Shown here: piece after piece, positions 1,271 to 15,956 of the stretch | Layout: each line of letters starts with the position of its first letter | Position numbering within the stretch: position 1 is the first letter of the stretch | Assembly: GCF_947503465.1 (NCBI RefSeq) | Contig: NZ_CANNDN010000001.1 | Coordinates: 1,302,001-1,366,000 of the forward strand | Origin: an uncultured Tateyamaria sp. | GTDB taxonomy: Bacteria; Pseudomonadota; Alphaproteobacteria; Rhodobacterales; Rhodobacteraceae | DNA length: 64,000 bases | Direction of reading: 5' to 3' | The notes under the pieces: model-generated | The model's input: only the letters and a program-made list of their open reading frames with translations | Databases searched by the model: none | What the model was told of the DNA's origin: nothing | Position numbers and translations under genes: made by a program

Positions 1271-2143
1271 TCAGGCGCGGGCCAGAACGAAGTCGTGGGT
1301 GACTTCATAATAGGGGCCGTCCATCCCCGCCTCGGCTATTTTGGCCGCATCCTCGATCAGATCGAATTTGGCCATCAGGCTTTCCTTGACGCCAAAAACG
1401 GCGTCCGAATGGATGTAGGGATCGTCGGGGTCGAAGATGTGGGTGGTGAGGGTTTCGAACCCGTCCGCCTCGATGATGTAGTGCAGGTGCGCCGGGCGGT
1501 ACGGGTGCCGGCCCAGCGCGCCCATCAGCTTGCCCACGGGGCCATCGTCGGGGATGGGATAGTATTTCGGTTTAACACCCTTGAAGTGATAGTGCCCGTC
1601 CGCGCCCGTACGGAACACGCCGCGCAGGTTGAAATCGGGCTGTATCCCCTTTTGCTGCACGTCGTAGAACCCTTCGTCATTGGCCTGCCAGACATCGATC
1701 TTGGTCTGGTCGATGGGGGTGCCGTCCGTATCCAGGATGCGCCCCTTGACCAACATCGGGTCGCCCTTGCCATCGCGGCAGATGTTGTCGCCCATCGCCA
1801 TTTCGGGCGCGTCGGGCAGGTGGAAGGGACCCAGGACGGTGGATTCTGACGCGCCGGACGGTTTGCGGTTGTTGATGGCGTCGACCAGCATCGACACACC
1901 CAGCGTATCGCTGAGCAGGATGAACTCCTGCCGCCAGTCGGTGCACATGTGGCCGGTTTCGGTCAGGAACATGATCGCCTTGAACCACTCCTCGTCCGTC
2001 GGTTCGATCTCCTTCACGCAGGCGTGCATGTGACGCACGATCGCCTCCATCACCTGGGCCAGCCGTGCGTTGTCGGTCGTGGTGCGGGCGTTGACCACCT
2101 CGGCCGAGTTGTCTTCGGTGAAGTATCCGTCATGGGCGGTCAT
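1271..2143 (-). CDS. Hydroxyquinol 1,2-dioxygenase (intradiol ring-cleavage)
   Basis: Cleaves hydroxyquinol (1,2,4-trihydroxybenzene) between its ortho hydroxyls with O2 to give maleylacetate. The 290-residue protein has the two-part intradiol layout: a helical N-terminal dimerisation region (about 1-100) and a beta-sandwich catalytic domain. The non-haem Fe(III) ligands of the family are recognisable as Tyr160 (GFYDVQ), a Tyr at 194/195 (KYYPIPDDGPVG), and His219 and His221 (RPAHLHY). Hydroxyquinol rather than catechol specificity is inferred mainly from the neighbouring maleylacetate reductase. Its ATG overlaps the stop of the upstream monooxygenase gene (ATGA), so the two are translationally coupled. 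Confidence 0.88.
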   Translation of the reverse strand: MTAHDGYFTEDNSAEVVNARTTTDNARLAQVMEAIVRHMHACVKEIEPTDEEWFKAIMFLTETGHMCTDWRQEFILLSDTLGVSMLVDAINNRKPSGASESTVLGPFHLPDAPEMAMGDNICRDGKGDPMLVKGRILDTDGTPIDQTKIDVWQANDEGFYDVQQKGIQPDFNLRGVFRTGADGHYHFKGVKPKYYPIPDDGPVGKLMGALGRHPYRPAHLHYIIEADGFETLTTHIFDPDDPYIHSDAVFGVKESLMAKFDLIEDAAKIAEAGMDGPYYEVTHDFVLARA

Positions 2144-3915
2144 GCGATAGCCTCCTGTTGGGTGTTCCGGGCCAGGATCGCGCGCAGCACGCGGTCAAGG
2201 TCGGCCCTGGGATCGTCTGACAGGCCTTCGGCGCGCCAGGCGACATGGTGGTCGGGGCGCACAAGGACACAGCCCGCTTCGCCCACTTCGCGGGCACGGG
2301 CCCAATCGCCCGTGTGATCGATCAGCGGCTGGCGTGGCCCGATGACATGGGTCGAAAGCCGGATGCCCATGTCCGCGGCAACCTGTGTCGCCGCCTCTGC
2401 CCAGGCGCGACCGTTCAGGCCGGTGAGCAGCGCAAAGCCGCCCCCGGTCAAGTCGAGCGTCGAATGCCTGGCCCCCTGCGCATCATAGAGCCAGACATGC
2501 GGCAGCCGCGCCCCCGGCCACGTGGTGGGCTGGTAGTGCAGTTCGTGATCCAGATCGAAGGCCGGTTCCATCTGCCCGTCCGTCACCACCGCATCCGAGC
2601 GATAGCGCTGGTTCATCTCGACCCCGTGCGCGTCAAATTCGTATTTCTTGAACGCAATGGACTCGCGCAGGGCGGCCCGCTGGGCCTCGGCCTCGGGCGT
2701 GCTGTCGCAGCGCTTGTCCATGTTGGCCTGCATCACGTCCGGGTCGGTGTGGCCGATCAGGCCAAGGGCCTCGAAGATGGGGCCGAATTCGCCGATGGAC
2801 TGATTGGCGCGGGTCACGATCTGTTTCGCCACGGGCGCGCGTTCGGTGTTGTAGCTGTCCAAAAGCCCCGTGCCCGCCTGCCCCTTGAGCACGGCGGCGA
2901 GTTTCCAGGACAGGTTGAAGGCGTCCTGGATCGAGGTGTTGGAGCCCAACCCATTCGACGGCGGATGCCGGTGGGCCGCGTCGCCCATGATGAACACCCG
3001 GCCCTTGCTGAGTTGCGTGGCATAGGCGTCGTTCACCGTCCAGTAGCTGATGCCCTGCATTTCGATGTCGAGGTCCGGATCACCCACGAGGTCACGAATG
3101 ATTTTCTTGGCCTCGTCCTCATTCAGCTCGGGCCGTTCACCATCGATATCGTAGCCCCAGATGGCAAGCCATTCGGTCCAGGGGCGCACCATCCGCACAA
3201 CCCCCATGCCGATGCCGCCAACATTCGAACCCGGCTGCATGACCCAATAGAGAACGGATGGGCGATGGGCGACATGTTGGCTGAGGTCCGCCTTGAACAG
3301 CAGGTTGATGGACCCCGCGACGCCCATCTTGCCTTCGATGGGCAGACCGGTGTTTTCGGTGACTTGCGAATTGCCGCCGTCGGCGCCGACCAGATACCTG
3401 GACCGCACGGTAAACGTCTTGTTCGTGAGCCGATCAAGCAGCGTGGTTGTGACGCCTTCGCCGTCTGCCTCGTGGCTTTGGTATTCGCAGGACATGCGCG
3501 CCTGCGTCCCGCGCGAACAGGCGGTCTTGAACAGCAGCGGTTCCATGAAGGTCTGCGGCAGATCGTTCATCTTGCTGGGCGAAGACAGGTCGTGTTCGGC
3601 GCGGGACAGCGGGTGCGTGCCCCAGGTCTGGATGCGGCCCAGTTCCTCGCCCGTGAGGCTTTCGCAGAACACGTTCGACCCCATCAGGTCCTGTTCGGTG
3701 GCGTGCATGTAAGCCTCGTCCTCGACCTCGCGGCCCAGATCGCGCAGCACCTCCATCGTGCGCTGGTTGGTGATGTGCGCACGGGGGCTGTTGGCCAGCC
3801 AGCGATAGCGGTTCACCACCATGTTTTCGATGCCGTAGGTCGACAGAAGCGCCGCCGTGGCGGATCCGGCGGGGCCTGTTCCGATGATCAGGACGTCTGT
3901 TGTGATGTCGGCCAT
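2140..3915 (-). CDS. FAD-dependent aromatic monooxygenase (phenol 2-monooxygenase / TfdB-like)
   Basis: Group A flavoprotein hydroxylase that uses NAD(P)H and O2 to hydroxylate a phenolic ring. Its 591 residues match the length of TfdB-type 2,4-dichlorophenol hydroxylases. Seen are the FAD dinucleotide fold IIGTGPAGSATAALL near residue 10, the mid-protein motif FIMGDAAHRHPPSNGLG that contacts FAD ribose/pyrophosphate, and a thioredoxin-like C-terminal domain. With ring cleavage by a hydroxyquinol dioxygenase downstream, the likely product is hydroxyquinol, from resorcinol, hydroquinone or a substituted phenol; the actual substrate cannot be read from the sequence. It is the middle gene of the operon: 21 bp after the reductase gene and overlapping the dioxygenase gene by four bases. 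Confidence 0.87.
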   Translation of the reverse strand: MADITTDVLIIGTGPAGSATAALLSTYGIENMVVNRYRWLANSPRAHITNQRTMEVLRDLGREVEDEAYMHATEQDLMGSNVFCESLTGEELGRIQTWGTHPLSRAEHDLSSPSKMNDLPQTFMEPLLFKTACSRGTQARMSCEYQSHEADGEGVTTTLLDRLTNKTFTVRSRYLVGADGGNSQVTENTGLPIEGKMGVAGSINLLFKADLSQHVAHRPSVLYWVMQPGSNVGGIGMGVVRMVRPWTEWLAIWGYDIDGERPELNEDEAKKIIRDLVGDPDLDIEMQGISYWTVNDAYATQLSKGRVFIMGDAAHRHPPSNGLGSNTSIQDAFNLSWKLAAVLKGQAGTGLLDSYNTERAPVAKQIVTRANQSIGEFGPIFEALGLIGHTDPDVMQANMDKRCDSTPEAEAQRAALRESIAFKKYEFDAHGVEMNQRYRSDAVVTDGQMEPAFDLDHELHYQPTTWPGARLPHVWLYDAQGARHSTLDLTGGGFALLTGLNGRAWAEAATQVAADMGIRLSTHVIGPRQPLIDHTGDWARAREVGEAGCVLVRPDHHVAWRAEGLSDDPRADLDRVLRAILARNTQQEAIA

Positions 3916-3936
3916 GTGTTCCTCCCAAAACTGGCG

Positions 3937-4995
3937 TTAGCGCTGTGGCGGCGTGCCTTCCCAGGCGGCCTGCAGCAATGTGCGTATTCCGTCCCGCGTC
4001 ACTGGGGCGGGGTTCGGGTATGGTTTTTGCGTGGCAAGGTCTGCTGCGCGGTCAAGATCGGCTGCGCGCACGCCCAGATCGCGCAGCGCAAGAGGGGCGT
4101 TCATGCGCGTCGCGAAGGCATGCAGCGCGGGACCGGGTGCGGGTGCGCCGAAAATGTCGGTGACAGGGGCCAGCAACCCGGGAACGGCTTGCGCATTGTA
4201 GTGGATCGCATGCGGCAGGATGATCGCATGTGTGTCCGCGTGCGGCAGGTCAAGACTGCCGCCCAGCGTGTGACACAGCTTGTGATGCAGCGCCATCCCG
4301 ACCTGTCCCAGAACGGCGCCGCAGGCATAGGCCCCGCGCAACGTCCTTTCCCGGGCCACAGTGTCGGCGGGGTTGTCCAGGACCATCGGCAGGCCTTCGG
4401 CGAAGTGTCGCATGCCCTCGACCGCCAATGCGTCGCTGCGGTCCGTACGGTTCTGTGCATAAAGCGCTTCGGCGGCGTGGGCGATGGCATTCAGCGCCGA
4501 GGTCACGGTCATAGCGGCCGGCAGGGATGTGACCAGTTCGGGGTCATAGAGGATGACTTCGGGCTGTACCCGCGCATCGGTGAACGTGGTTTTGATCCCG
4601 TTTTCCGTTTGCCCGAGGATCGCCGTCGCTTCGGACCCGGCATAGGTGGTCGGGATCACGATCTGTGGCACATCGGTGCGGTATGCGATGGCTTTGCCCA
4701 ACCCGGTGGTCGACCCGCCGCCGATGGCGATCACGCAGTCGGCCTGCACATCCGTGAGGTGCCCGACCGCATCTTCGGTAACATTGACGGGGGTGTGCAT
4801 GGTGGCACGTGCAAAGATGCCCGCGGCCTTGTCGCCCAGCGCTTCGGCCACCTGCATGGCGCTGTCGCATTGCTGTGGCGTGGACAGGACCAACGCCTTG
4901 TGACAGCCCAGCCGGGCCACTTCATCGGCCACGGTGTGGCGCAGACCGGCACCAAACAGGACGCGGGTGGGTTGGAGGGTGGCGGTGCTGTGCAT
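3937..4995 (-). CDS. Maleylacetate reductase (iron-containing alcohol dehydrogenase family)
   Basis: Reduces maleylacetate to 3-oxoadipate with NAD(P)H, feeding the 3-oxoadipate pathway. The 352-residue protein has the Fe-ADH fold: N-terminal nucleotide-binding half with IAIGGGSTTGLGKAIA, and a metal-binding half with HKLCHTLGG and HAIILPHAIHYN, the His-rich stretches typical of maleylacetate reductases. It is the first gene of the minus-strand operon, followed by the monooxygenase and dioxygenase, so the three steps from phenol to 3-oxoadipate lie in one transcript. Its start faces the LysR gene across 68 bp. Confidence 0.88.
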   Translation of the reverse strand: MHSTATLQPTRVLFGAGLRHTVADEVARLGCHKALVLSTPQQCDSAMQVAEALGDKAAGIFARATMHTPVNVTEDAVGHLTDVQADCVIAIGGGSTTGLGKAIAYRTDVPQIVIPTTYAGSEATAILGQTENGIKTTFTDARVQPEVILYDPELVTSLPAAMTVTSALNAIAHAAEALYAQNRTDRSDALAVEGMRHFAEGLPMVLDNPADTVARERTLRGAYACGAVLGQVGMALHHKLCHTLGGSLDLPHADTHAIILPHAIHYNAQAVPGLLAPVTDIFGAPAPGPALHAFATRMNAPLALRDLGVRAADLDRAADLATQKPYPNPAPVTRDGIRTLLQAAWEGTPPQR

Positions 4996-5022
4996 ATCCG
5001 AAGGCTACCCGCCCTTCACGAT

Positions 5023-5058
5023 CATGTTGATACGAATTGAGAGGCAGAATATAACATG
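5023..5058. promoter_or_regulatory. Candidate LysR operator between maleylacetate reductase and LysR genes
   Basis: CATGTT (5023-5028) and AACATG (5053-5058) form an inverted repeat with A/T-rich sequence between them, centred in the 68-bp divergent intergenic region. This is where LysR regulators usually bind to control both genes. Its use is inference. Confidence 0.4.
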
Positions 5059-5063
5059 ATGCT

Positions 5064-6014
5064 ATGCAACTGGACCCCAATCACCTTGTGATGCTGGCCG
5101 CTGTCGTGGATGAGGGCGGTCTGACCCCCGGCGCACATGCCCTGGGCAAGTCGCAACCGTCCCTGTCGCGGACGCTTGCCGCCCTTGAGGCGCGGTTGGG
5201 CCAGCCGCTGTTCGAAAAGGGCCGCCGCCCGCTTGTTCCGACCGAGCTTGGGGCTGCGTTGGCGATGCAGGGCCGCATCATCCGGCAGGCCAGTGGCGAA
5301 GCGGCGACACAGGCCGATCTGTATATCGGCGGCAAGACGGGCGCGGTGCGCGTCGCGGGCACACCGGTGTTCATGGACGCGGTCATTGCCACCATGATCG
5401 CCGGGTTCCAGCAGGCGCATCCGAATGTGCGGATCGACCAAAGCTATGGCTATGCCGAGACGTTGATACGGGATGTGGAAAGCGGTGCCCTTGATCTGGC
5501 CATCTGCCCCCTGCCCCCGGGCGACTTGCCCGATCCGATCCAGTTCGAAGAGATCCTGCAGGGCCGCAATGTCATTGCCTGCCGCATGGGTCATCCGCTT
5601 GCCCGCAAACGCGCGCTGCGGCTCGAAGACATTGCGACCTATCCCTGGATCGCGCCACCCACCAACAGCCCGCTGTACCAGGACCTGCGCGCCATCCTGC
5701 ACGAGATCGAGGTCGAAGACGTCAAGGTCAGCTTTTCCGGCGGCTCGATCAGCGCGGTGCGCACTGTGCTGGAAGGGTCGGACAGCCTGACGATCCTGCC
5801 CTATTCCGTGTTGTTCATGATGCGGCAACAAAAGGCGCTGACTGCGCTGGACATCCGCATTCACCATGCGCCGCGCAACCTTGGGATCATCAGCCCGCGC
5901 GACCGGCCGGTGCGCCCTGCGGTCCGCCGGTTTCACCGTCACATCGCGTCAGAATTCAAGGCGCTGGCGCGGTCCATCTCCCACGCGCAGCAGAACTCTC
6001 TGTGGCGCGTCTGA
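5064..6014 (+). CDS. LysR-family regulator of the hydroxyquinol cluster
   Basis: 316-residue one-component regulator. The N-terminal winged helix-turn-helix is clear (HALGKSQPSLSRTLAALEARLG, residues about 26-47, quoted in part), followed by a periplasmic-binding-protein-like effector domain. Its divergent placement from the maleylacetate reductase/monooxygenase/dioxygenase operon is the standard LysR arrangement, so it probably activates that operon in response to a pathway intermediate. This is inferred from context. The chosen ATG begins MQLDPNHLVMLAAV, the usual LysR N-terminus. Confidence 0.87.
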   Translation: MQLDPNHLVMLAAVVDEGGLTPGAHALGKSQPSLSRTLAALEARLGQPLFEKGRRPLVPTELGAALAMQGRIIRQASGEAATQADLYIGGKTGAVRVAGTPVFMDAVIATMIAGFQQAHPNVRIDQSYGYAETLIRDVESGALDLAICPLPPGDLPDPIQFEEILQGRNVIACRMGHPLARKRALRLEDIATYPWIAPPTNSPLYQDLRAILHEIEVEDVKVSFSGGSISAVRTVLEGSDSLTILPYSVLFMMRQQKALTALDIRIHHAPRNLGIISPRDRPVRPAVRRFHRHIASEFKALARSISHAQQNSLWRV

Positions 6015-6089: not shown

Positions 6090-6633
6090 CGGGCCAGGTC
6101 GGCGAAACTGGTTTTCCCTGCACTCGGCGCGTCCGTTGTTTCAAATGGCGCGCCCGCGCCAAGCCTTGCGGCCAACGTCGAAGGGGCCCAGCTTGACAGA
6201 GGCGGCAGCATCGCGGCCGACGGGGGGGTGAAGACATCTTCGGGCACCGATAGGTGTTTTCCGATGGCTCAACGGCGACCGGGGCCGACATGCTCCATGA
6301 CTTTGCCGACCCGGGCGCAGCGTGTGTGACCCGCGTCACCGGGTTGGCAGGGGCTGGCCCTGCGTCTGCACTCCCTCGAACCGCGCAAGCCTGTGATCGT
6401 GGACGCGGCCCCGGTCGCAGGTTGGACGGTGACGGATCAGATGTGTTCCGCCGCCCCCACGGGACTGGAGCGACAGCCCGGACCCGGATGTCCCGCACGA
6501 GGTGTCGCTGCTGACGCTGGTCCGTCGGGACTTGCCGGATGTGGTGTCGCTGCAATTGGCGGTGGCAGGATCGGACCTGCCGATCACGATCACCGATCAG
6601 GCAGGCAGGACGGCCCACACCATGACAAGATAG
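6090..6633 (+). pseudogene. Frame-disrupted remnant of an unidentified gene
   Basis: No intact ORF of convincing composition exists between the LysR stop (6014) and the DUF3307 gene. Protein-like stretches do occur on the plus strand in successively different frames: around 6256-6340 (SDGSTATGADMLHDFADPG), 6342-6447 (LEPRKPVIVDAAPVAGWTVT) and 6463-6630 (HEVSLLTLVRRDLPDVVSL), the last ending at TAG 6631-6633. Joining them needs at least two frame changes, which fits a decayed gene. I do not recognise the family. Its end overlaps the 3' end of the DUF3307 gene on the other strand. Sequencing error is the alternative explanation. Confidence 0.35.
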
Positions 6634-6980
6634 GTCCATTGGTGCAGCGCCTGATCCAGACCGAATGCGCGCCAGAACCCGGCCTGGGCCGGGCCGTGAC
6701 CGGTATGTTCGGACCACCGCCCCTTGCCCCAGTCAATGTGAAAGTGAACCACCCATTCCGCAATCGCGACGCCAAAGGCCAGCGGCACCGGCACCCCCAC
6801 AAGCACCATCGCAACAAGCGAACCCACGGCGTGCAGGCCGGCATGCTGCAAGCGCCCGACATGCAGATACTGGCCGCGATTGGCCAGCATGCGCTGCGTT
6901 TGCAGATAGAAATCGGCAAACAGATGCTTTGCCTGCAGCAAAAACAACAGAACCAAGACAAAGGTAACCGGGTCAGTCAA
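6597..6980 (-). CDS. DUF3307 family small membrane protein
   Basis: A 127-residue hydrophobic protein with about four transmembrane segments. The N-terminal LLFLLQAKHLFADFYLQT and the following HAGLHAVGSL segment are the conserved parts of DUF3307 proteins, which have no established function. I place the start at TTG 6980, preceded by GAAAGG at a normal distance; the residues encoded further upstream do not look protein-like and no family member I know extends there. It is convergent with the remnant at 6090-6633 and divergent from the ABC/CNBD gene. Confidence 0.65.
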   Translation of the reverse strand: MTDPVTFVLVLLFLLQAKHLFADFYLQTQRMLANRGQYLHVGRLQHAGLHAVGSLVAMVLVGVPVPLAFGVAIAEWVVHFHIDWGKGRWSEHTGHGPAQAGFWRAFGLDQALHQWTYLVMVWAVLPA

Positions 6981-7200
6981 AAGGTGCCTTTCACATAGCC
7001 GCTGACCGCACCCTAGGATGCGGCGGACGCCGTCGCAATCCGTCACGTGGCGCAGGGCGACGACCCATTGATTTCCCGTAACCGCCCTTGATAGGTTAAC
7101 GCAGGGTGCATCGGCTGCCCGACTTCAGACGTGGACCGGCACCATAGAACGCTCCCTTTTTGGATTTATCTGGAAGTATTCAAAGCGTGATCAGCTGATC

Positions 7201-10143
7201 TTGCTGGTCGTCACCCTGACGCTGTTTCCGCTTCTGTATCTGACGCTGGAATTGCCAAAACAGATCATCAACGATGCCATCGGCTCCGGCTCTCCGACGA
7301 TTTCGGCCTATGGGTATGAGTTTGATCAGGTCACCTACCTGATGATGCTGTGCGGGGCCTTTCTGGTGGCGGTGCTGTGTCACGGCCTTCTCAAGATGCG
7401 GATCAACACAATGAAGGGTGTGCTGGCAGAACGGCTGCTGCGCCGCTTCCGTTACACCCTGATCGCGCGCATCCTGCGCTTTCCGCAACCCTATTTCGAA
7501 CGCACCAGCCAGGGCGAGCTGGTCAGCATGGTCACCGCCGAAAGCGAACCGATGGGCGGGCTGATGGGCGACGCGGTGGCGCAGCCCGTGCTGCAGGCAG
7601 GCCAGATGCTGACCATTCTGGGCTTTCTGTTCTTTCAGTCGGTGGCCTTCGGCTTTGCCGCCATTGCCCTGATCCCGTTGCAGGCGTGGCTGATCCCCAA
7701 GCTGCAACGCCAGATCAACCAGCTGAACAAGAAACGCGTGGTCCAGGTGCGTGCCCTGGCGGCGGAGATCGGCGAAGGCGCGGCCGGGGCCGGCACCTTG
7801 CGCGTAAATGGGGGCTGGCGATTTCGCATGGCCATGATCGGAAACCGGCTGGGCAACCTTTTTGCCATCCGTTTCCAGATCTACCAGAAAAAGTTCTTCA
7901 TGAAGTTCCTCAACAACTTCATCACGCAACTGACCCCGTTCTTCTTCTTTTCCATCGGTGGCTACCTTGTCATTCAGGGCGATGTGACCATCGGTGCGCT
8001 TGTGGCGGCCCTTGCCGCCTACAAGGATCTGTCGAGCCCGTGGAAAGAGCTGCTGGCCTATTACAACCAGACCGCGGACATGTCGTTGCGCTGGGAAACC
8101 ATCACGGAACGCTTTGCCCCGTCCGGCATGATCGATGACGACCTGTTCTATGCGCCAGCCCCCGCCGCGCCCCGGTTGAACGGCGACATCGTGCTGGACC
8201 AGGTGACGGTCCGCGACGGCGACGGCAATGCCGTGCTTGAGGACATCACCCTGTCTGTCCCCGCGGGGACAACCCTGGGCATCACTGCCCCTAATGACGA
8301 AGACCGCCGGGCCCTGGCCGAGGTGCTGACGCGCGAAACGCTGCCGACAAGCGGAACGGTCACGCTGGCCGGGCACGACATCAAGTCGCTGCACCAGGCC
8401 ACGATTGCCCAACGGATCGGCCACGCCAATTCCAGGCCCATCATGTTTCAGGGCAGTTATGGCCAGAACGTCATGATGCCGATGCGACTGGCCCCGCTGG
8501 CGGCCGCCGCGGAAACCGATTTCAGCCGCGAAGCGGTCCGCGCAGGCAACACCGCCGACATGCTGGACGCCCAGTGGCTGGACCCGTCCATCGCAGGTGT
8601 CAAAGCCAAGGAAGACCTGCGGGCATGGTGGTACGCCCTGATCGAAGGCAGTGGCAGCGGTGCCGCGTTGACGCGCCGGACCATGGACCAGACCTTTGAC
8701 GCCGACGCGCATCCCGAATTGGCGCAGGCCCTGATCGACCTGCGCCCCGAGGTGGCGGCTGCTGTGCAGGCCGCTGGGCTGGACCGGTTCGTGCACCGTT
8801 TCGACCCCGAGACCTACAACCCGGCGCTGCCCATTGCCGAGAACCTGTTGTTTGCCACGCCCCGCATCGCCCTGACGCCGGACGTGATCGAGGCCCGGCT
8901 CGACTTCCTGCGCCTGTTGCATGACCTGTCGCTGGCCTCGAACCTGGAGAACCTGGCGCGCAATATCCTGGAAATGCTGCGCCAGATCTTTGGACCCAAC
9001 GGAACCGATCACCCCCTGTTCCGCCGCGTCGGGCTGGAGACCGAGATTTACAACAGCGCGCTTGAATTGGTGGACCGCAAACCCGCCGGGTCCGAGATCA
9101 CGGATACGGAACTGTCCCTGTTGCTGAGCGTGCCCACGAATGTGACAGCCGAACAGGTGGCCGCCGCATTCCCGGACGACGTGCGGAACCGTGTGCTGAG
9201 CATGCGCACCGAACATGGCGCGACCCTGCGTGCGCAGATGGAGGACGTGTTTGTGCCCATCGCCCCCGACGCCCATGTGCATGGGGTGTCGGTGCTTGAA
9301 AACGCGCTGTACGGAAAGGTGTCGGACGGTGCAGGTGCACGGGCGGATGATCTGCGCCGCATCGTCGTGGAGGTGCTGACGGATGCGGGCGTGAACCAGC
9401 TGGTGCTGGAACTGGTGTTTGACGTGCCCATCGCCCTGGGCGGCGCCAATCTGCCTGCATTGTTTGCCGAACCCCTGTCGATCAGCCGGGCCACAATCAA
9501 ACGGCCCGATATCCTGATCCTGGACGAACCGATGTTCAGCTACGGCGACGACACCCGCGCCGGGTTGATCAAGAACCTGCGTGCCCTGCTGCCCGAGGCG
9601 ACATTGATTGTCCTGAGCACGGCGTTTGAAGAGGAAGACGCCTTTGACGCTCATGTCGAGGTTGTCCAGGGCCGTCTGCAAGGTGCCGAGGGCGCGCGGA
9701 GCGAGGCGGGCAGCGATGCAAGCGCCGACCTGGCGCGCAAGGTCGAAGCACTGCGGCAGGCGCCGATGTTCTCCGGGCTGAAACGCAAGCAACTGCGCCT
9801 TCTGGCCTTTGGCGCGCGCTGGTACACGGCCGATCCCGGCGAATATGTCTTTCACAAGAACGATGACCCGACCGATGGTGCCTACATAGTCACCGACGGA
9901 GAGGCCGATCTGCTGTTGCCCAGTGACGGTGCCGAAGACACCGTGATCGCCACTGTGGGGGCCGGCGCCCTGGTGGGTGAGCTGGGGCTGATCCGCAGCG
10001 AACCCCGCGCGCTTGATATGCGCGCCAAGACGGCCCTGACCTGCCTGCGGATCGGGGAAGAGGAGTTCATGGCCGTGGTCGAAAACGATGCGGCAACCGC
10101 GTTCCGCCTTTTGCAGGTTGTGGCGGGGTACGTGAAAACCTGA
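7201..10143 (+). CDS. ABC exporter-like protein with degenerate ATPase domain, large insertion and C-terminal cyclic-nucleotide-binding domain
   Basis: 980 residues from TTG 7201. Domains: type I exporter transmembrane region (about 1-300); first half of a nucleotide-binding domain (328-430) in which the Walker A position reads LGITAPNDEDRRAL, with no GxxGxGK(S/T); an unrelated insertion of about 310 residues (430-743); a signature-like IALGGANLPALFAEPL (744-759) in place of LSGGQ; an intact Walker B ILILDEP (771-777); STA where the switch histidine should be (806-808); and a cyclic-nucleotide-binding domain (about 856-975) with GELGLIRSEPRA, resembling a phosphate-binding cassette. It is therefore probably not a normal ATP-driven pump; a regulated flippase, a scaffold or a partner of an active ATPase are possibilities. 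The family-like N-terminus IERSLFGFIWKYS lies upstream from ATA 7144, with no ATG/GTG/TTG between the upstream stop (7069) and 7201, so the true start is uncertain. Confidence 0.85.
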   Translation: MLVVTLTLFPLLYLTLELPKQIINDAIGSGSPTISAYGYEFDQVTYLMMLCGAFLVAVLCHGLLKMRINTMKGVLAERLLRRFRYTLIARILRFPQPYFERTSQGELVSMVTAESEPMGGLMGDAVAQPVLQAGQMLTILGFLFFQSVAFGFAAIALIPLQAWLIPKLQRQINQLNKKRVVQVRALAAEIGEGAAGAGTLRVNGGWRFRMAMIGNRLGNLFAIRFQIYQKKFFMKFLNNFITQLTPFFFFSIGGYLVIQGDVTIGALVAALAAYKDLSSPWKELLAYYNQTADMSLRWETITERFAPSGMIDDDLFYAPAPAAPRLNGDIVLDQVTVRDGDGNAVLEDITLSVPAGTTLGITAPNDEDRRALAEVLTRETLPTSGTVTLAGHDIKSLHQATIAQRIGHANSRPIMFQGSYGQNVMMPMRLAPLAAAAETDFSREAVRAGNTADMLDAQWLDPSIAGVKAKEDLRAWWYALIEGSGSGAALTRRTMDQTFDADAHPELAQALIDLRPEVAAAVQAAGLDRFVHRFDPETYNPALPIAENLLFATPRIALTPDVIEARLDFLRLLHDLSLASNLENLARNILEMLRQIFGPNGTDHPLFRRVGLETEIYNSALELVDRKPAGSEITDTELSLLLSVPTNVTAEQVAAAFPDDVRNRVLSMRTEHGATLRAQMEDVFVPIAPDAHVHGVSVLENALYGKVSDGAGARADDLRRIVVEVLTDAGVNQLVLELVFDVPIALGGANLPALFAEPLSISRATIKRPDILILDEPMFSYGDDTRAGLIKNLRALLPEATLIVLSTAFEEEDAFDAHVEVVQGRLQGAEGARSEAGSDASADLARKVEALRQAPMFSGLKRKQLRLLAFGARWYTADPGEYVFHKNDDPTDGAYIVTDGEADLLLPSDGAEDTVIATVGAGALVGELGLIRSEPRALDMRAKTALTCLRIGEEEFMAVVENDAATAFRLLQVVAGYVKT

Positions 10144-10149: not shown

Positions 10150-10242
10150 TTCCGCCCATCGCGACATATCCGGTGGAACCTGTGCCGCATGTTTGGCATT
10201 GACGTCAGGAAGGCCGCGCGTTGCGCGTGGTGGGGTGCCACG

Positions 10243-12027
10243 ATGTATCAGAAAGTCTGCCGCGTATGGGCAGTATGTGCTGCCATGCTTGGCATATCCG
10301 GGGGGGCGTGGGCCCTGACGGTGGACGTGCGCGCGCCCGACGCGATAACCGAGGATATCCGCACCGCATCACTCAGCGCCGCATTGCTGAACGAGGACGG
10401 CCCCGTCCGGCCCATTGATGTGATCAGCGCCGCGCAGGCCGACTATGCCCGTCTGATCGCGCTGCTTTATGATCAGGGGTATTTCGGCCCCACCATTTCG
10501 ATCACCGTCGACGGACGCGAAGCGGCAAGCCTGTCGCCCGTGTCCGCGCCCGCCGCCGTGAACACGGTGGTCGTCACGGTCGATCCCGGCAAGGTGTTCA
10601 CCTTTGGCACCGTAGCCGTGCGGCCCACGGCCCCCGGCACAGACCCCACACCCGAGGCCCAGCCGGGTGAAACCGCCAATGTCACGGCTTTGCGCACCGC
10701 CACCGCGAACGGGATCGAGGGATGGCGCCAGCAAGGTCACGCCAAGGCGGCCGTGGACAGCCAGCAGATCACCGCGAACCACCCTGCGGGGACGTTGAGC
10801 GCCGATATCCGCCTGGCGCCCGGTCCGCGCCTGCGTCTGGGCAGGATGAGCATCGAAGGCGACAGTGCCGTGCGCGAAAAGCGCATCCGCGAGATCGCAG
10901 GCTGGCCCAGCGGCGAGGTGTTCGACCCCGACACGCTCGACAAGGTCGAAAAACGTCTGCGCCGCACCGGCACCTTTGCCAGCGCCAGCCTGTCCGAGGC
11001 GGAAACCGCCAATCCGGACGGCACGCTTGACGTGGATTTGCAGATCACCGACCAGTTGCCGCGCCGCTACAGCTTTGGCGCCGAATACGGCACCACCGAC
11101 GGGTTCAGCGTCAGCGCGCTTTGGCTGCATCGCAACATCTTCGGCGGGGCCGAACGGCTTCAGATCGAGGGCGAGATCAAAGGCGTGGGCGGCGATACCG
11201 AAGGCGTGGACTTTCGCCTGGGTGCCCAGATTTCCCGCCCGGCCACGTGGCGCACGGACCTTGAGGCGGTCCTTTTGGCCGAGATCGAGCAACGCGATGA
11301 CCCGAACCTGTTTGCCCGCACCGGACGGCTTGAGTTCAGCACCATCTATTTTGCCAGCGAAGACCGTGAATACAGTTATGGCGTCGGGCTGCAACGTGCC
11401 AAGACACGCGATGATCTGGGGGAACGGGACTACACAATCCTGACCTTCCCCTTCACGGCCAAGTTCGACCGCCGGGATAACTCCCTGAACGCGACCTCCG
11501 GCTATTTTGCCCAAGCCGGTATACGGCCCTTCGTCAATCTCGAAGGGACGAGCGACGGTGTCGTGACCACGCTTGATCTGCGCACCTATCGGAAACTGGG
11601 CGACCGCATCGTGTTGGCCGCGCGTGGCCTGTTCGGGTCCGTGGCAGGGCCGTCCATCGAAGAGGCACCGGCCGATTTCCTGTTCTTTTCCGGCGGCAGC
11701 GGCACGGTGCGCGGGCAGGATTACCAATCGCTCGGCGTCGAACTCAGCCCCGGTGTGACCATCGGCGGGCGGTCCTTTGTGGGGCTTTCGGGGGAAATGC
11801 GCGTCAAAACCGGTGAACGGCTGTCGGTCGTGGGCTTCTACGACGCGGGCTATGTCGGATCCGAAAGTTTCTTTGACGGGTCGGGCGAATGGCACACGGG
11901 CTTTGGTGCGGGTGTCCGCTACGACACCGGCATTGGCCCCATCCGGTTTGACGTAGGTCTGCCCGGGTCCGGCCCCGGCGACAGTTCGGGCGTGGAAATC
12001 TACATCGGAATAGGACAGGCCTTTTGA
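10243..12027 (+). CDS. tamA: TamA, Omp85-family outer-membrane component of the translocation and assembly module
   Basis: Outer-membrane beta-barrel protein that, with TamB, helps insert a subset of outer-membrane proteins and is implicated in phospholipid traffic between membranes. From ATG 10243 it is 594 residues: a signal peptide (MYQKVCRVWAVCAAMLGISG, cleavage near AWA), POTRA-type domains (to about residue 270), then a 16-strand-type barrel containing FFSGGSGTVRGQDYQSLG, the conserved inner-barrel RGQ/RGY loop, and a C-terminal IGIGQAF ending in Phe as in outer-membrane barrels. An in-frame ATG at 10189 would add 18 residues before the signal peptide and is less likely. The stop overlaps the tamB start. 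Confidence 0.9.
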   Translation: MYQKVCRVWAVCAAMLGISGGAWALTVDVRAPDAITEDIRTASLSAALLNEDGPVRPIDVISAAQADYARLIALLYDQGYFGPTISITVDGREAASLSPVSAPAAVNTVVVTVDPGKVFTFGTVAVRPTAPGTDPTPEAQPGETANVTALRTATANGIEGWRQQGHAKAAVDSQQITANHPAGTLSADIRLAPGPRLRLGRMSIEGDSAVREKRIREIAGWPSGEVFDPDTLDKVEKRLRRTGTFASASLSEAETANPDGTLDVDLQITDQLPRRYSFGAEYGTTDGFSVSALWLHRNIFGGAERLQIEGEIKGVGGDTEGVDFRLGAQISRPATWRTDLEAVLLAEIEQRDDPNLFARTGRLEFSTIYFASEDREYSYGVGLQRAKTRDDLGERDYTILTFPFTAKFDRRDNSLNATSGYFAQAGIRPFVNLEGTSDGVVTTLDLRTYRKLGDRIVLAARGLFGSVAGPSIEEAPADFLFFSGGSGTVRGQDYQSLGVELSPGVTIGGRSFVGLSGEMRVKTGERLSVVGFYDAGYVGSESFFDGSGEWHTGFGAGVRYDTGIGPIRFDVGLPGSGPGDSSGVEIYIGIGQAF

Positions 12028-15000
12028 TGCGGCACCTGATTTACATGCTCCTTGTCCTTCTGTGGCCCCTGGCGGCGCTGGCCCAGGACGAAGAGGATCG
12101 CGGGTTTATCGTGGGTCTGCTGGAAAGCAGCCTGGGTGGCGAAGGGCGCACCGTGCGCATCGACGGCTTTGCCGGGGCGCTCAGCAGCCGCGCCACGATC
12201 GAACGGATCACCATTGCCGACAGCGAAGGCATCTGGCTGACGCTGGAAGATGTGGCGATGCAATGGAACCGCAGCGCGCTGTTCCGCGCGACAATCGATA
12301 TCGAGGAACTGCGCGCCGCGCGTATCGACCTGCCCCGCCTGCCCGTTGCGCGACCCAATGACCTGCCCGCGCCCGAGGCCGCACCCTTTGCCCTGCCGGA
12401 CCTGCCCGCCGCGATCCGCATCGCGCAGTTGAACCTGTCCGAAGTGGTACTGGGCGCGCCGGTCCTGGGCGAAGCGGCGGTGCTGACCGTTTCGGGTGCC
12501 GCCGAACTGGCCGGCGGAGCCGGCAGCGCGCAGCTGGCCGCGCGGCGCACGGATGGGCCGCGTGCAGCGTTCGACCTCAATGCGGCATATGCCAACGACA
12601 CGCGCGACCTGACGCTGGACCTCGGGCTCAGCGAAGGGGCCGAGGGCCTTGTGTCCGGCCTGCTCAACATCCCCGACCGGCCCAGCCTTGATCTGTCCGT
12701 CGCAGGGGCAGGCGCGCTCAGCGATTTCAACGCCACGCTGGATCTGCGCACGGACGACACGCCGCGGCTGGCCGGAACCCTTGCGCTGCAAAGTACGGAA
12801 GACGGGCCGATGGCCTTTGACGCGGCCCTGGATGGGGATGTCACCGCGTTGATCCTTCCGGAATACCGGTCCTTCTTTGGACCCGACGTCGGGTTGACGG
12901 CGCGCGGCAGCACGGATGCGGACGGGGCGCTGACGCTTGAGGATTTCGCACTGGACACGCGGGCCCTGCAATTGGCGGGCGAGGCGGCGCTGAACGGCGA
13001 TGGCTGGCCGAGCTTTCTCGATATCTCGGGCACGCTGGCTGATCCCTCCGGGGATCCGGTCGCCGTGCCCGGCGCGGATGGCACCACGTTGTCCGGTGCA
13101 GAACTGGTCATTGATTTTGATGCCAGCCAAAGCGATGCGCTGGTTGCGCGGATCACGGCAACCGATCTGGATGCGGCGGGCAACGGGGTGCAAGAGGTTG
13201 CGCTGACCTTTGACGGAACGCTGAGCGGGGCGGTGGGCACCATCGGCGCATTGGCGGGGCGGGTTGACTTTGACGCAACCGGGGTCGCGCTTGCCGACCC
13301 CGCGCTGTCCGATGCGGTGGGCACGGCGCTGTCAGGTGGACTGGACGTACGATATGCAGAGAACGCGCCGCTTGATCTGGCGGCGATGTCCATCGCATCC
13401 GCGGCGTGGGTGATGACGGGTGCCGCGCAGATCGATGGGTTTAGCGATGGGTTGGAGACCGAATTCGACACGGCGCTGGTAACACAGGACCTGTCCGCCT
13501 TTGCAGGTCTTGCGGGGCTGGACCTGTCGGGGGCCGGGCAGGTGTCGCTTGGCGGCTCTGCGGCGCTTGGGGGCTTTTTTGATATCGAGATCGCGGGGCA
13601 GACCCGCGATCTGGCCGTGGGCATCGCACAGGCCGACACGCTGCTGTCCGGGCAGACCGACCTGACGGTCGCCGCGCGCCGCGACACAACGGGCACCTTC
13701 GTGGACCGGTTGACGCTGGAAAACGCGGCGCTGGAGCTGACGGCCAGTGCCGATCTGCGCACCGGCGGCTCGGTCGCCCGCTTCAATGCGGCGCTGGCGG
13801 ATGTGGGACAGGTGACCGAAGCGGTGTCAGGCCCCATCACGCTGGACGGGACAGCCACGCAAACCGGCGACATCTGGGACATCAGCACGGGCTTGTCCGG
13901 TCCGTTGGAGACCACAGCGACCGGGACGGCACGGCTGTCGCCTGACGGCACCGGTGTCACGCTGAACGCGACCGTGGGCGATATCGCGGCACTGGTGCCA
14001 CAGGTCGACGGGGACATCGCCCTGACCGCCACGGCCAACCAGACCGATGGGGCCTGGCAGTTCGACACGCAGATTGACGGCCCCGCCGACGCCCGCGCCG
14101 CGATCACGGGCCTGTTGGATGATGGCCGCCTGACGGCGCGCTATGACGTGGCGGCACCGGATCTCGCCGCCTTTGCGCCGGGCGTGCCTGGGGGGGCCAC
14201 GCTGGTGGGCGATGTCCGGCAGACGGCCACGGGCTGGGCCTTTGACACCGATGTGACAGGCCCCTACGCCAGCAGCGGCCGCGTTTCGGGCACATTTGAC
14301 CAGGTCCTGGTAACGGATTTTGACCTTGCCCTGCCCAATGTGGCGGCGGTGGCACCGGGGATAAACGGCACCCTGGCCCTCGACGGGACGCTCACGCAGA
14401 CGGCCCGGGGATGGGACGTTGTGACCGACCTTGCCGGACCTTACAGCAGCAGCGGGCGGGTCAGCGGGGCGCTTGCGGATGGCGTTGCCTCTGCGCGCTA
14501 CGCCCTCAGCGTGCCCAATATCGCGCCGCTTGTGCCCGGCCTGAACGGTGGCGCATCCATTGAGGGCACGGTCCAGCAGGTGGGGACGGATTACGACATC
14601 GACGCCCGGATTGCGGGGCCGTCGGGCACAACGGCCACGGCATCCGGGCGGGTTGCGTCAGATGGCAATCTGAACCTGAACACCCAGGGTCAGGTGCAGT
14701 TGGGTCTTGCCAATCCCTTCATCGCGCCCCGGACGATCATCGGCTCCGCCGGCTTTGACCTGGCCGTGAACGGGCCGCCTGCGCTATCTTCGGTGTCCGG
14801 CCAGATCACGACGCGGGGTGCACGGCTCGCGACCCCGAACCTGCCGGCCTCCATCTCGGATCTCAGCGGGTCGGTGCGCCTTGCGGCGGGTCAGGCCGCA
14901 CTTGATTTCACGGCGGCCATCGCCGAAGGCGGCAGCGTCGGCATCGCGGGTCCAATCACGCTGAACGGCAGCTATCCGGCCCAGTTGGGGGTGACCCTGA

Positions 15001-15956
15001 ACAGTGTCGTGCTGCGCGATCCGGCCCTCTATACCACCACCGTCGATGGCAACATCGCGTTGAGTGGACCACTGACAGGCGGGGCTGCGATTTCGGGGCA
15101 GATCAATCTGGGGGAAACCAACGTGCAGGTGCCATCGACGGGCATTTCCACATTTGGCGCCATCCCGGACATCCGGCATATCGGGGCCACCCGCCCCGTC
15201 ATGCGCACCCGCGCCCGCGCGGGCCTTGGCCCGAAGGACGAACAGGCAGGTGGCGGCGCCGCCTTCCCGCTTGATCTGACAATCAACGCGCCCAACCGCA
15301 TCTTTATCCGTGGTCGCGGCCTTGATGCCGAACTGGGCGGGCAGTTGCGTCTGTCCGGGACAACCGCCGACATCATTTCGACCGGACAGTTCGACCTGAT
15401 CCGGGGACGGCTGAGCATCCTCGCCCAGCGTTTCACCCTTGATGAAGGCCGCGTGACGCTGCAGGGGCGGTTCGAGCCGATCCTGCTGTTTGTCGTGGAA
15501 ACCGACACCGCGACCGGGACGGCGCGCATCATCGTGGACGGGCCTGCCGACGATCCCGAGGTCCGGTTCGAGTCCACGCCCGAAGCGCCCGAGGACCAGG
15601 TGCTGGCACAGATCATCTTTGGCCGTGACATCAGCCAGCTGTCGGCTTTTCAGGCGCTGCAACTTGCCAGCGCCGTGGCCAGCCTTGCCGGGGCCCGTGG
15701 CGAAGGGGTGGTGTCGCGATTGCGCGGGTCATTTGGTCTGGACGACCTTGATGTGACGTCGGACGGCGAAGGCAACACCGCCGTGCGGGCGGGCCGCTAC
15801 CTGTCCGAAAACATCTATACCGATGTGACGGTTGGCGGGGCCGACGGGCCCGAAGTGTCCCTGAACATCGACCTGACGCCCAACATCACGGCGCGCGGCA
15901 CGGTCGGGGCGGATGCCAATACCGGCATCGGTATCTTCATCGAAAAGGACTACTGA
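12024..15956 (+). CDS. tamB: TamB, translocation/assembly module inner-membrane-anchored protein (DUF490)
   Basis: Long periplasm-spanning partner of TamA. 1310 residues with an N-terminal uncleaved-type signal anchor (HLIYMLLVLLWPLAALA), a very long beta-rich region of repeated short strands (AsmA-like, probably a lipid-conducting groove as in bridge-like proteins), and the conserved C-terminal TamB/DUF490 domain (about residues 950-1310). The last part includes GQFDLIRGRLSILAQRF, LAQIIFGRDISQLSAFQAL and the terminal strand ITARGTVGADANTGIGIF. Its ATG overlaps the tamA stop, so the two are coupled. The length is within the usual 1200-1500 for alphaproteobacterial TamB. Confidence 0.92.
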   Translation: MMRHLIYMLLVLLWPLAALAQDEEDRGFIVGLLESSLGGEGRTVRIDGFAGALSSRATIERITIADSEGIWLTLEDVAMQWNRSALFRATIDIEELRAARIDLPRLPVARPNDLPAPEAAPFALPDLPAAIRIAQLNLSEVVLGAPVLGEAAVLTVSGAAELAGGAGSAQLAARRTDGPRAAFDLNAAYANDTRDLTLDLGLSEGAEGLVSGLLNIPDRPSLDLSVAGAGALSDFNATLDLRTDDTPRLAGTLALQSTEDGPMAFDAALDGDVTALILPEYRSFFGPDVGLTARGSTDADGALTLEDFALDTRALQLAGEAALNGDGWPSFLDISGTLADPSGDPVAVPGADGTTLSGAELVIDFDASQSDALVARITATDLDAAGNGVQEVALTFDGTLSGAVGTIGALAGRVDFDATGVALADPALSDAVGTALSGGLDVRYAENAPLDLAAMSIASAAWVMTGAAQIDGFSDGLETEFDTALVTQDLSAFAGLAGLDLSGAGQVSLGGSAALGGFFDIEIAGQTRDLAVGIAQADTLLSGQTDLTVAARRDTTGTFVDRLTLENAALELTASADLRTGGSVARFNAALADVGQVTEAVSGPITLDGTATQTGDIWDISTGLSGPLETTATGTARLSPDGTGVTLNATVGDIAALVPQVDGDIALTATANQTDGAWQFDTQIDGPADARAAITGLLDDGRLTARYDVAAPDLAAFAPGVPGGATLVGDVRQTATGWAFDTDVTGPYASSGRVSGTFDQVLVTDFDLALPNVAAVAPGINGTLALDGTLTQTARGWDVVTDLAGPYSSSGRVSGALADGVASARYALSVPNIAPLVPGLNGGASIEGTVQQVGTDYDIDARIAGPSGTTATASGRVASDGNLNLNTQGQVQLGLANPFIAPRTIIGSAGFDLAVNGPPALSSVSGQITTRGARLATPNLPASISDLSGSVRLAAGQAALDFTAAIAEGGSVGIAGPITLNGSYPAQLGVTLNSVVLRDPALYTTTVDGNIALSGPLTGGAAISGQINLGETNVQVPSTGISTFGAIPDIRHIGATRPVMRTRARAGLGPKDEQAGGGAAFPLDLTINAPNRIFIRGRGLDAELGGQLRLSGTTADIISTGQFDLIRGRLSILAQRFTLDEGRVTLQGRFEPILLFVVETDTATGTARIIVDGPADDPEVRFESTPEAPEDQVLAQIIFGRDISQLSAFQALQLASAVASLAGARGEGVVSRLRGSFGLDDLDVTSDGEGNTAVRAGRYLSENIYTDVTVGGADGPEVSLNIDLTPNITARGTVGADANTGIGIFIEKDY

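Follow-up and report, generated by a model that had tools for sequence, protein, structure and literature searches.

This work concerns a gene at 7144..10143 (+) of a 64,000-nucleotide stretch of DNA from an uncultured Tateyamaria sp. (contig NZ_CANNDN010000001.1, positions 1,302,001 to 1,366,000; hereafter the window), whose open frame translates into a 999-residue product with, in this order, a type I ATP-binding cassette (ABC) exporter membrane domain, an ATPase domain devoid of the P-loop and a C-terminal cyclic-nucleotide-binding domain (CNBD). From the sequence comparisons below we propose, with middling confidence, that the product is a membrane protein controlled by its CNBD which no longer hydrolyses ATP, and that an AUA/AUC start codon holds its expression low. 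A preliminary description of the window had noted a dead-looking ATPase, an insertion and a CNBD; all three are present, and its frame, domains and coordinates hold on translation and in Pfam, with residue numbers about 19 below ours, apparently counted from a TTG at 7201. The finding is real, and it is richer than described there, where the family-wide coupling of ABC protein and CNBD and the rare start codon had gone unnoticed.

In Pfam, ABC_membrane (PF00664) matches residues 41-290 (E 9.9e-17, 61.9 bits against a cut-off of 28), and this match, model helices and conservation together delimit an N-terminal elbow and transmembrane domain (TMD; residues 1-325, 7144..8118, like all features of the gene on the + strand). 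The ABC_tran match is partial (residues 365-453, E 3.1e-6), and cNMP_binding (PF00027) matches residues 897-982 (E 2.1e-15) inside the CNBD (residues 862-997, 9727..10134). The protein is a conserved full-length relative of the type I (MsbA/ComA-like) ABC exporters, the nucleotide-binding domain (NBD) of which is predicted to keep its fold here. Identity with the MsbA lipid A flippase was rejected, as NCBIfam TIGR02203 gives 108 bits, far under its cut-off of 602.

Matches occur in 28 of 61 genomes, and each of the 20 same-genus genomes, including that of the window, holds two; the closest named relatives are Tateyamaria. A contig scan gave 444 relatives, the best 80 of which (about 61-90% identical) were kept, and the clade of the window was named A. 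The alignment counts cover 81 A sequences (the window, 79 loci and L007), and the start counts cover 80, namely the window and the 79 full-length loci aligned to residue 1. L102, an A-clade gene of a metagenome-assembled genome split in two pieces by a frame break, was left out of both.

The ATP site and the repeated segments of the nucleotide-binding domain

At the Walker A position (residues 379-391, 8278..8316) the window protein lacks a P-loop and reads A-P-N-D-E-D-R-R. Arg 388 stands in the place of the Walker A Lys, with an Asp directly before it, in 81/81 A sequences, and the Lys is found in 0/81, bearing out the loss of Walker A claimed in the preliminary description. The replaced switch His is borne out as well: the region reads STA (residues 825-827, 9616..9624), no A sequence has His at aligned position 826, and two of the 81 carry one at 827. 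An LSGGQ signature was not found in the A clade alignment, where the region reads LGG(A/Q)N...P-A (LGGAN in the window protein, residues 765-769, 9436..9450). Walker B, ILILDEP (residues 790-796, 9511..9531), had been cited as intact, and the window protein itself does have the Walker B Asp and the catalytic Glu; the argument fails because this Glu is lineage-specific and unconserved, being present in just 9/81 sequences beside Asn in 17, Ser in 13, Lys in 12, Gln in 10, Asp in 8, Arg in 7, Thr in 3 and Gly in 2. The Walker B Asp position holds Asp in 53 and Glu in 27 of the 81.

The loop that replaces Walker A is conserved across the A clade (mean conservation 0.881, with 0.865 for the TMD and 0.838 for the CNBD, versus 0.63-0.68 for the insert), so that the site looks rebuilt and repurposed instead of randomly decayed. 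Homologues with Walker A at the same position, which the preliminary description would have counted against its reading, are present in the distant L166 and L182 and never among the A orthologues; the alignment is therefore right, and the loss in the A clade stands.

The insertion described between the Q-loop and the signature is real, but it consists of additional tandem copies of the Q-loop-to-signature segment of the same NBD. Unit 1 runs from the Q-loop onwards (residues 422-545, 8407..8778), unit 2 is an extra copy (residues 546-699, 8779..9240) and unit 3 runs into the signature (residues 700-790, 9241..9513), as delimited by hhalign, in which units 2 and 3 align at 97.7% and 7.6e-12; the control c3 has only 9 columns, which weakens 4 of the 13 control pairs.

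We think it very doubtful that the protein still exports at the expense of ATP through an unusual site in which Arg serves for Lys and the Walker B Asp is kept. In favour of this, the NBD fold is predicted to be intact, the Walker B position is Asp in 53 and Glu in 27 more, and relatives across the class are odd-sited too, most non-fused members having an acid directly behind the Lys/Arg position (see below). Against it, the Lys, LSGGQ and the switch His have disappeared together with the glycines of the P-loop, and the catalytic Glu is kept in so few.

Another explanation, which we hold to be unlikely, is a heterodimeric exporter in which the protein would be the inert partner, bringing a degenerate site and regulation by its CNBD, while an unlinked ABC half-transporter would give the one working ATP site. 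It is well established that exporters can have one degenerate site, according to the available part of the source (PMC7756269), and partners exist, as the 4.1-Mb assembly of the window contains at least 115 ABC_tran matches (150 of 190 candidates scored), among which the gene itself is not listed. Yet about 31 kb separate the gene from the closest match listed (C1:1342845), and no other ABC gene stands among the annotated neighbours in Ruegeria TM1040, the other loci having had no systematic search and an Azospirillum relative having adjoining ABC genes. Moreover, the frequent companion of the gene, paralogue B (see below), is no better equipped: Walker A Lys, catalytic Glu and switch His at 826 are missing from 6/6 of its sequences.

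The start codon

The gene seems, from sequence comparison, to start at ATA 7144 (7144..7146). Read from the upstream stop, the frame in the window meets its first ATG, GTG or TTG only at codon 20 (the TTG at 7201), and residue 1 of the aligned orthologues corresponds to the ATA. Among the 80 loci this position is ATA in 58, ATC in 19, ATG in 3 and ATT in 0, that is, ATA or ATC in 77/80, while 74% of the internal Ile codons of these genes are ATC, 23% ATT and 3% ATA; the rows of this count are related, hence binomial values overstate its significance. At least 15 changes of start codon are needed on the tree, none of them to ATT. In a second sample of 30 loci, about one genome per genus and overlapping the 80, 16 have ATA, 12 ATC, 1 ATG and 1 ATA with an upstream ATG; L200 reads ATC.

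Upstream of the ATA lies a Shine-Dalgarno-like stretch containing TGGA (7131..7140), at a suitable spacing. The best anti-Shine-Dalgarno site peaks at -7 (49/80 loci), with a mean energy of -4.67; internal codons drawn at random give -2.00, and canonical codons at 18-37 give -0.35. Purifying selection acts on codons 2-17 (pN 0.096, pS 0.77), and in 47/80 loci the stretch that begins at the upstream stop and ends with codon 17 holds no canonical codon. In Ruegeria TM1040, RefSeq starts the gene at a TTG that lies 17 codons downstream of the ATA, by which the conserved N-terminus is dropped. N-terminal proteomics of Ruegeria pomeroyi, in the available part of the report, gives ATG, GTG and TTG starts and required canonical codons for its corrections (PMC3305630), so that an ATA start is neither supported nor refuted by it.

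Rare starts of this kind have precedents. As far as the accessible text of one study goes, the infC start is ATC in Streptomyces and ATT in E. coli, and in sigR a conserved rare start, GTC, was shown experimentally to be held down by IF3 (PMC5472188). In 19/19 same-genus genomes infC has ATC at its conserved first residue, the other infC loci being unread or differing. By analogy with infC and sigR, we infer that the gene would be repressed by IF3.

The cyclic-nucleotide-binding domain, the wider family and the neighbours

The C-terminal CNBD named in the preliminary description is confirmed: its phosphate-binding cassette GELGLIRSEPRA (residues 945-956, 9976..10011) keeps G945, E946, L947 and R955 in 81/81 A sequences, the pocket Glu and Arg thus being invariant. 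The genome of the window encodes nine class III cyclase domains, which makes cyclic nucleotides plausible as ligands. As to function, the regulatory role suggested earlier fits, whereas the suggested cAMP/cGMP-gated lipid flippase is unsupported.

Paralogue B (L111) lies elsewhere in the same genome and is 50% identical to A. Its neighbours in L119 are ilvD, a CAAX protease gene, accD and folC, the last three of which were also found by BLAST in L177 and L181, and the B sequences read start with ATG. The label was assigned by hand, and in the tree L112 (counted as B) branches before the A/B split and L178 inside B. A second match is seen in 31/36 A-bearing genomes (read by eye; two matches weak or partial). 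A and B could form a dimer that senses two nucleotides, a signalling platform that moves no substrate; this we find quite unlikely. The two often co-occur, both are dead, and their cassettes differ, with E in A and D in B (Asp for Glu, Arg kept, in 6/6), but 5/36 A-bearing genomes show no second match, and the very high conservation of the TMD, where 156/325 positions of residues 1-325 are invariant in 67 sequences, points to a path for a substrate or to a tightly bound partner.

The coupling of ABC protein and CNBD is old and kept across a large unnamed family. The insert profile matches 131/385 sampled alphaproteobacterial genomes at E 1e-10, and the records inspected are annotated only generically ('ABC transporter transmembrane domain-containing protein', 'ABC transporter ATP-binding protein' and similar). 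In the 44 loci read with their flanks, the CNBD is fused in 10 and encoded by a downstream same-strand gene in 33, with none seen in one (L188); measured from the end of the ABC frame, the separate domain begins at -3 to 148 nt in 32 loci and at 606 nt in L115, and its cassette keeps the Glu in 32/33 and the Arg in 33/33. A literature search, mostly outside subscription papers, brought up nothing published about the family or about ATA/ATC as its start.

A quick tree requires only one CNBD fusion event. L182, an early fused branch, still has GKS and DE, and the 17 later fused sequences all lack the P-loop Lys, with Arg (15), Cys (1) or Ala (1) there; L126-L129 and L136 (repeats or partial) were left out of this family alignment. 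The 45 non-fused members have Lys in 27 and Arg in 16 at the P-loop Lys position, followed by Asp or Glu in 42/45. Their Walker B Asp is replaced in 39/45, a Glu follows it in 29/45 and the switch His is present in 22/45; L166 is the sole non-fused member (1/45) with Lys, Ser/Thr, Asp and Glu all present. In typical ABC proteins a Ser/Thr follows the P-loop Lys, and this residue and the Walker B Asp are the usual magnesium ligands. With the former turned into an acid and the latter lost in most members, both ligands are mostly gone, and a swap of magnesium ligands with an acid gained in Walker A is possible, judging by these residues.

Most non-fused relatives stand beside a glycosyltransferase and histidine phosphatase set, usually divergent, and at least one such glycosyltransferase was found by BLAST (queries from L116 and L197, against fetched flanks) in 31/34 non-fused versus 0/10 fused loci; a Rhizobium plasmid carries the same set as annotated genes. 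In L116, L115, L197 and others, this conserved cluster beside the ABC-CNBD pair forms an uncharacterised alphaproteobacterial glycan locus. An oppD-like gene (oligopeptide-type ABC importer) lies near in 10/44 loci, and such a gene also figures in the annotation of the Rhizobium plasmid. L258, on Azospirillum sp. B510 plasmid pAB510d (8001-11144), is a relative of the family, annotated as one coding sequence of about 1047 residues and adjoining another ABC ATP-binding gene, a substrate-binding protein and permeases.

Next to the window gene, a divergent gene for a DUF3307 membrane protein (6597..7046, -; Pfam PF11750) is found beside it in 82/82 A loci of at least 8 kb (two being second fetches), and this neighbour, conserved across genera, may be a partner. 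Downstream, a tamA-like Omp85 protein gene (10189..12027, +) and a tamB-like gene (12024..15956, +), both assigned by Pfam, are adjacent to it in Tateyamaria alone of all the loci read. Elsewhere in the window, 1271-5040 (-) encodes an intradiol dioxygenase, an FAD aromatic hydroxylase and an iron-type alcohol dehydrogenase, the last of which we take to be maleylacetate reductase-like, and a LysR gene lies opposite (5064-6014, +); the former genes look like an aromatic (hydroxyquinol-type) degradation operon.

The proposed mechanism and its place among known systems

On our favoured reading, the protein would dimerise like an exporter without running on ATP, and the binding of cAMP/cGMP or another nucleotide to the CNBD, passed on through the enlarged helical part, would replace ATP as the conformational switch of the very conserved membrane domain. 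The protein would thereby be a nucleotide-sensing membrane regulator or a gated passage. The ancestor was probably a glycan or glycolipid exporter whose CNBD partner was a separate protein. The AUA/AUC start probably keeps expression low, which we propose because IF3 discriminates against this codon class.

Several points weigh against this reading. First, 33/80 loci have an ATG start or some ATG, GTG or TTG between the upstream stop and codon 17; the rare start is not universal, since ATG is the first codon in L048, L052 and L058 and also occurs in frame three codons before the ATA of L209. Second, the separate-CNBD relatives are odd-sited too, so that loss of the ATP site is not peculiar to the fused branch. 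Third, HetC, a characterised CNBD-bearing ABC exporter, bound ppGpp by its CNBD and showed no cAMP effect in the portion of the paper available (PMC10986499); a CNBD of this type can bind ppGpp, so a cyclic nucleotide may not be the ligand here, and the Asp at the cassette Glu of B means that its nucleotide binding may differ. Fourth, a heterodimer with an intact-site ABC partner could still energise the protein.

We tentatively suggest, with less confidence than in the favoured reading, that an exporter lineage traded its fuel-driven switch for a sensor: the ATP site would have been rebuilt after the fusion into a conserved non-nucleotide loop, the binding of ligand by the CNBD alone would move the membrane domain, and the conserved AUA/AUC start would throttle translation and tie the protein level to IF3, as for infC. 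If true, an AUA/AUC-started gene unrelated to infC would have been kept in about two dozen genera or more. The family, with graded relatives running from the near-canonical (L166, L182) to the P-loop-less, lets one ask of natural proteins whether the scaffold of an ABC exporter can function when ATP plays no part and another nucleotide is in control. It also presents a long-lived non-canonical bacterial start codon beyond infC; since this start is kept and yet missed by a RefSeq annotation, IF3-dependent control of a new gene is directly testable in Ruegeria or Phaeobacter.

In comparison with known systems, infC and sigR resemble the window gene in that a start other than ATG, GTG or TTG is retained by orthologues together with a Shine-Dalgarno site, as far as the accessible text of that study describes them (PMC5472188), whereas the window gene has an AUA/AUC start and encodes a membrane protein. 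HetC of Nostoc likewise joins an ABC exporter and a cNMP-type domain in one chain; its CNBD and C39 peptidase are N-terminal and an ATPase residue is essential, by the same partial source (PMC10986499), while the window protein has a C-terminal CNBD, no Pfam peptidase match and no ATP site. The unnamed alphaproteobacterial family has the insert profile and the CNBD partner in common with the window protein, and its non-fused members differ in having mostly Lys (27/45) or Arg (16/45) followed by an acid, a separate CNBD gene and glycosyltransferase genes nearby. Finally, MsbA, ComA, PCAT1 and TM287/288 (Type I/B-family exporters) share the TMD family and the NBD fold with the window protein, which differs from them in lacking the P-loop, the signature and the switch His and in possessing extra NBD segments and a C-terminal CNBD.
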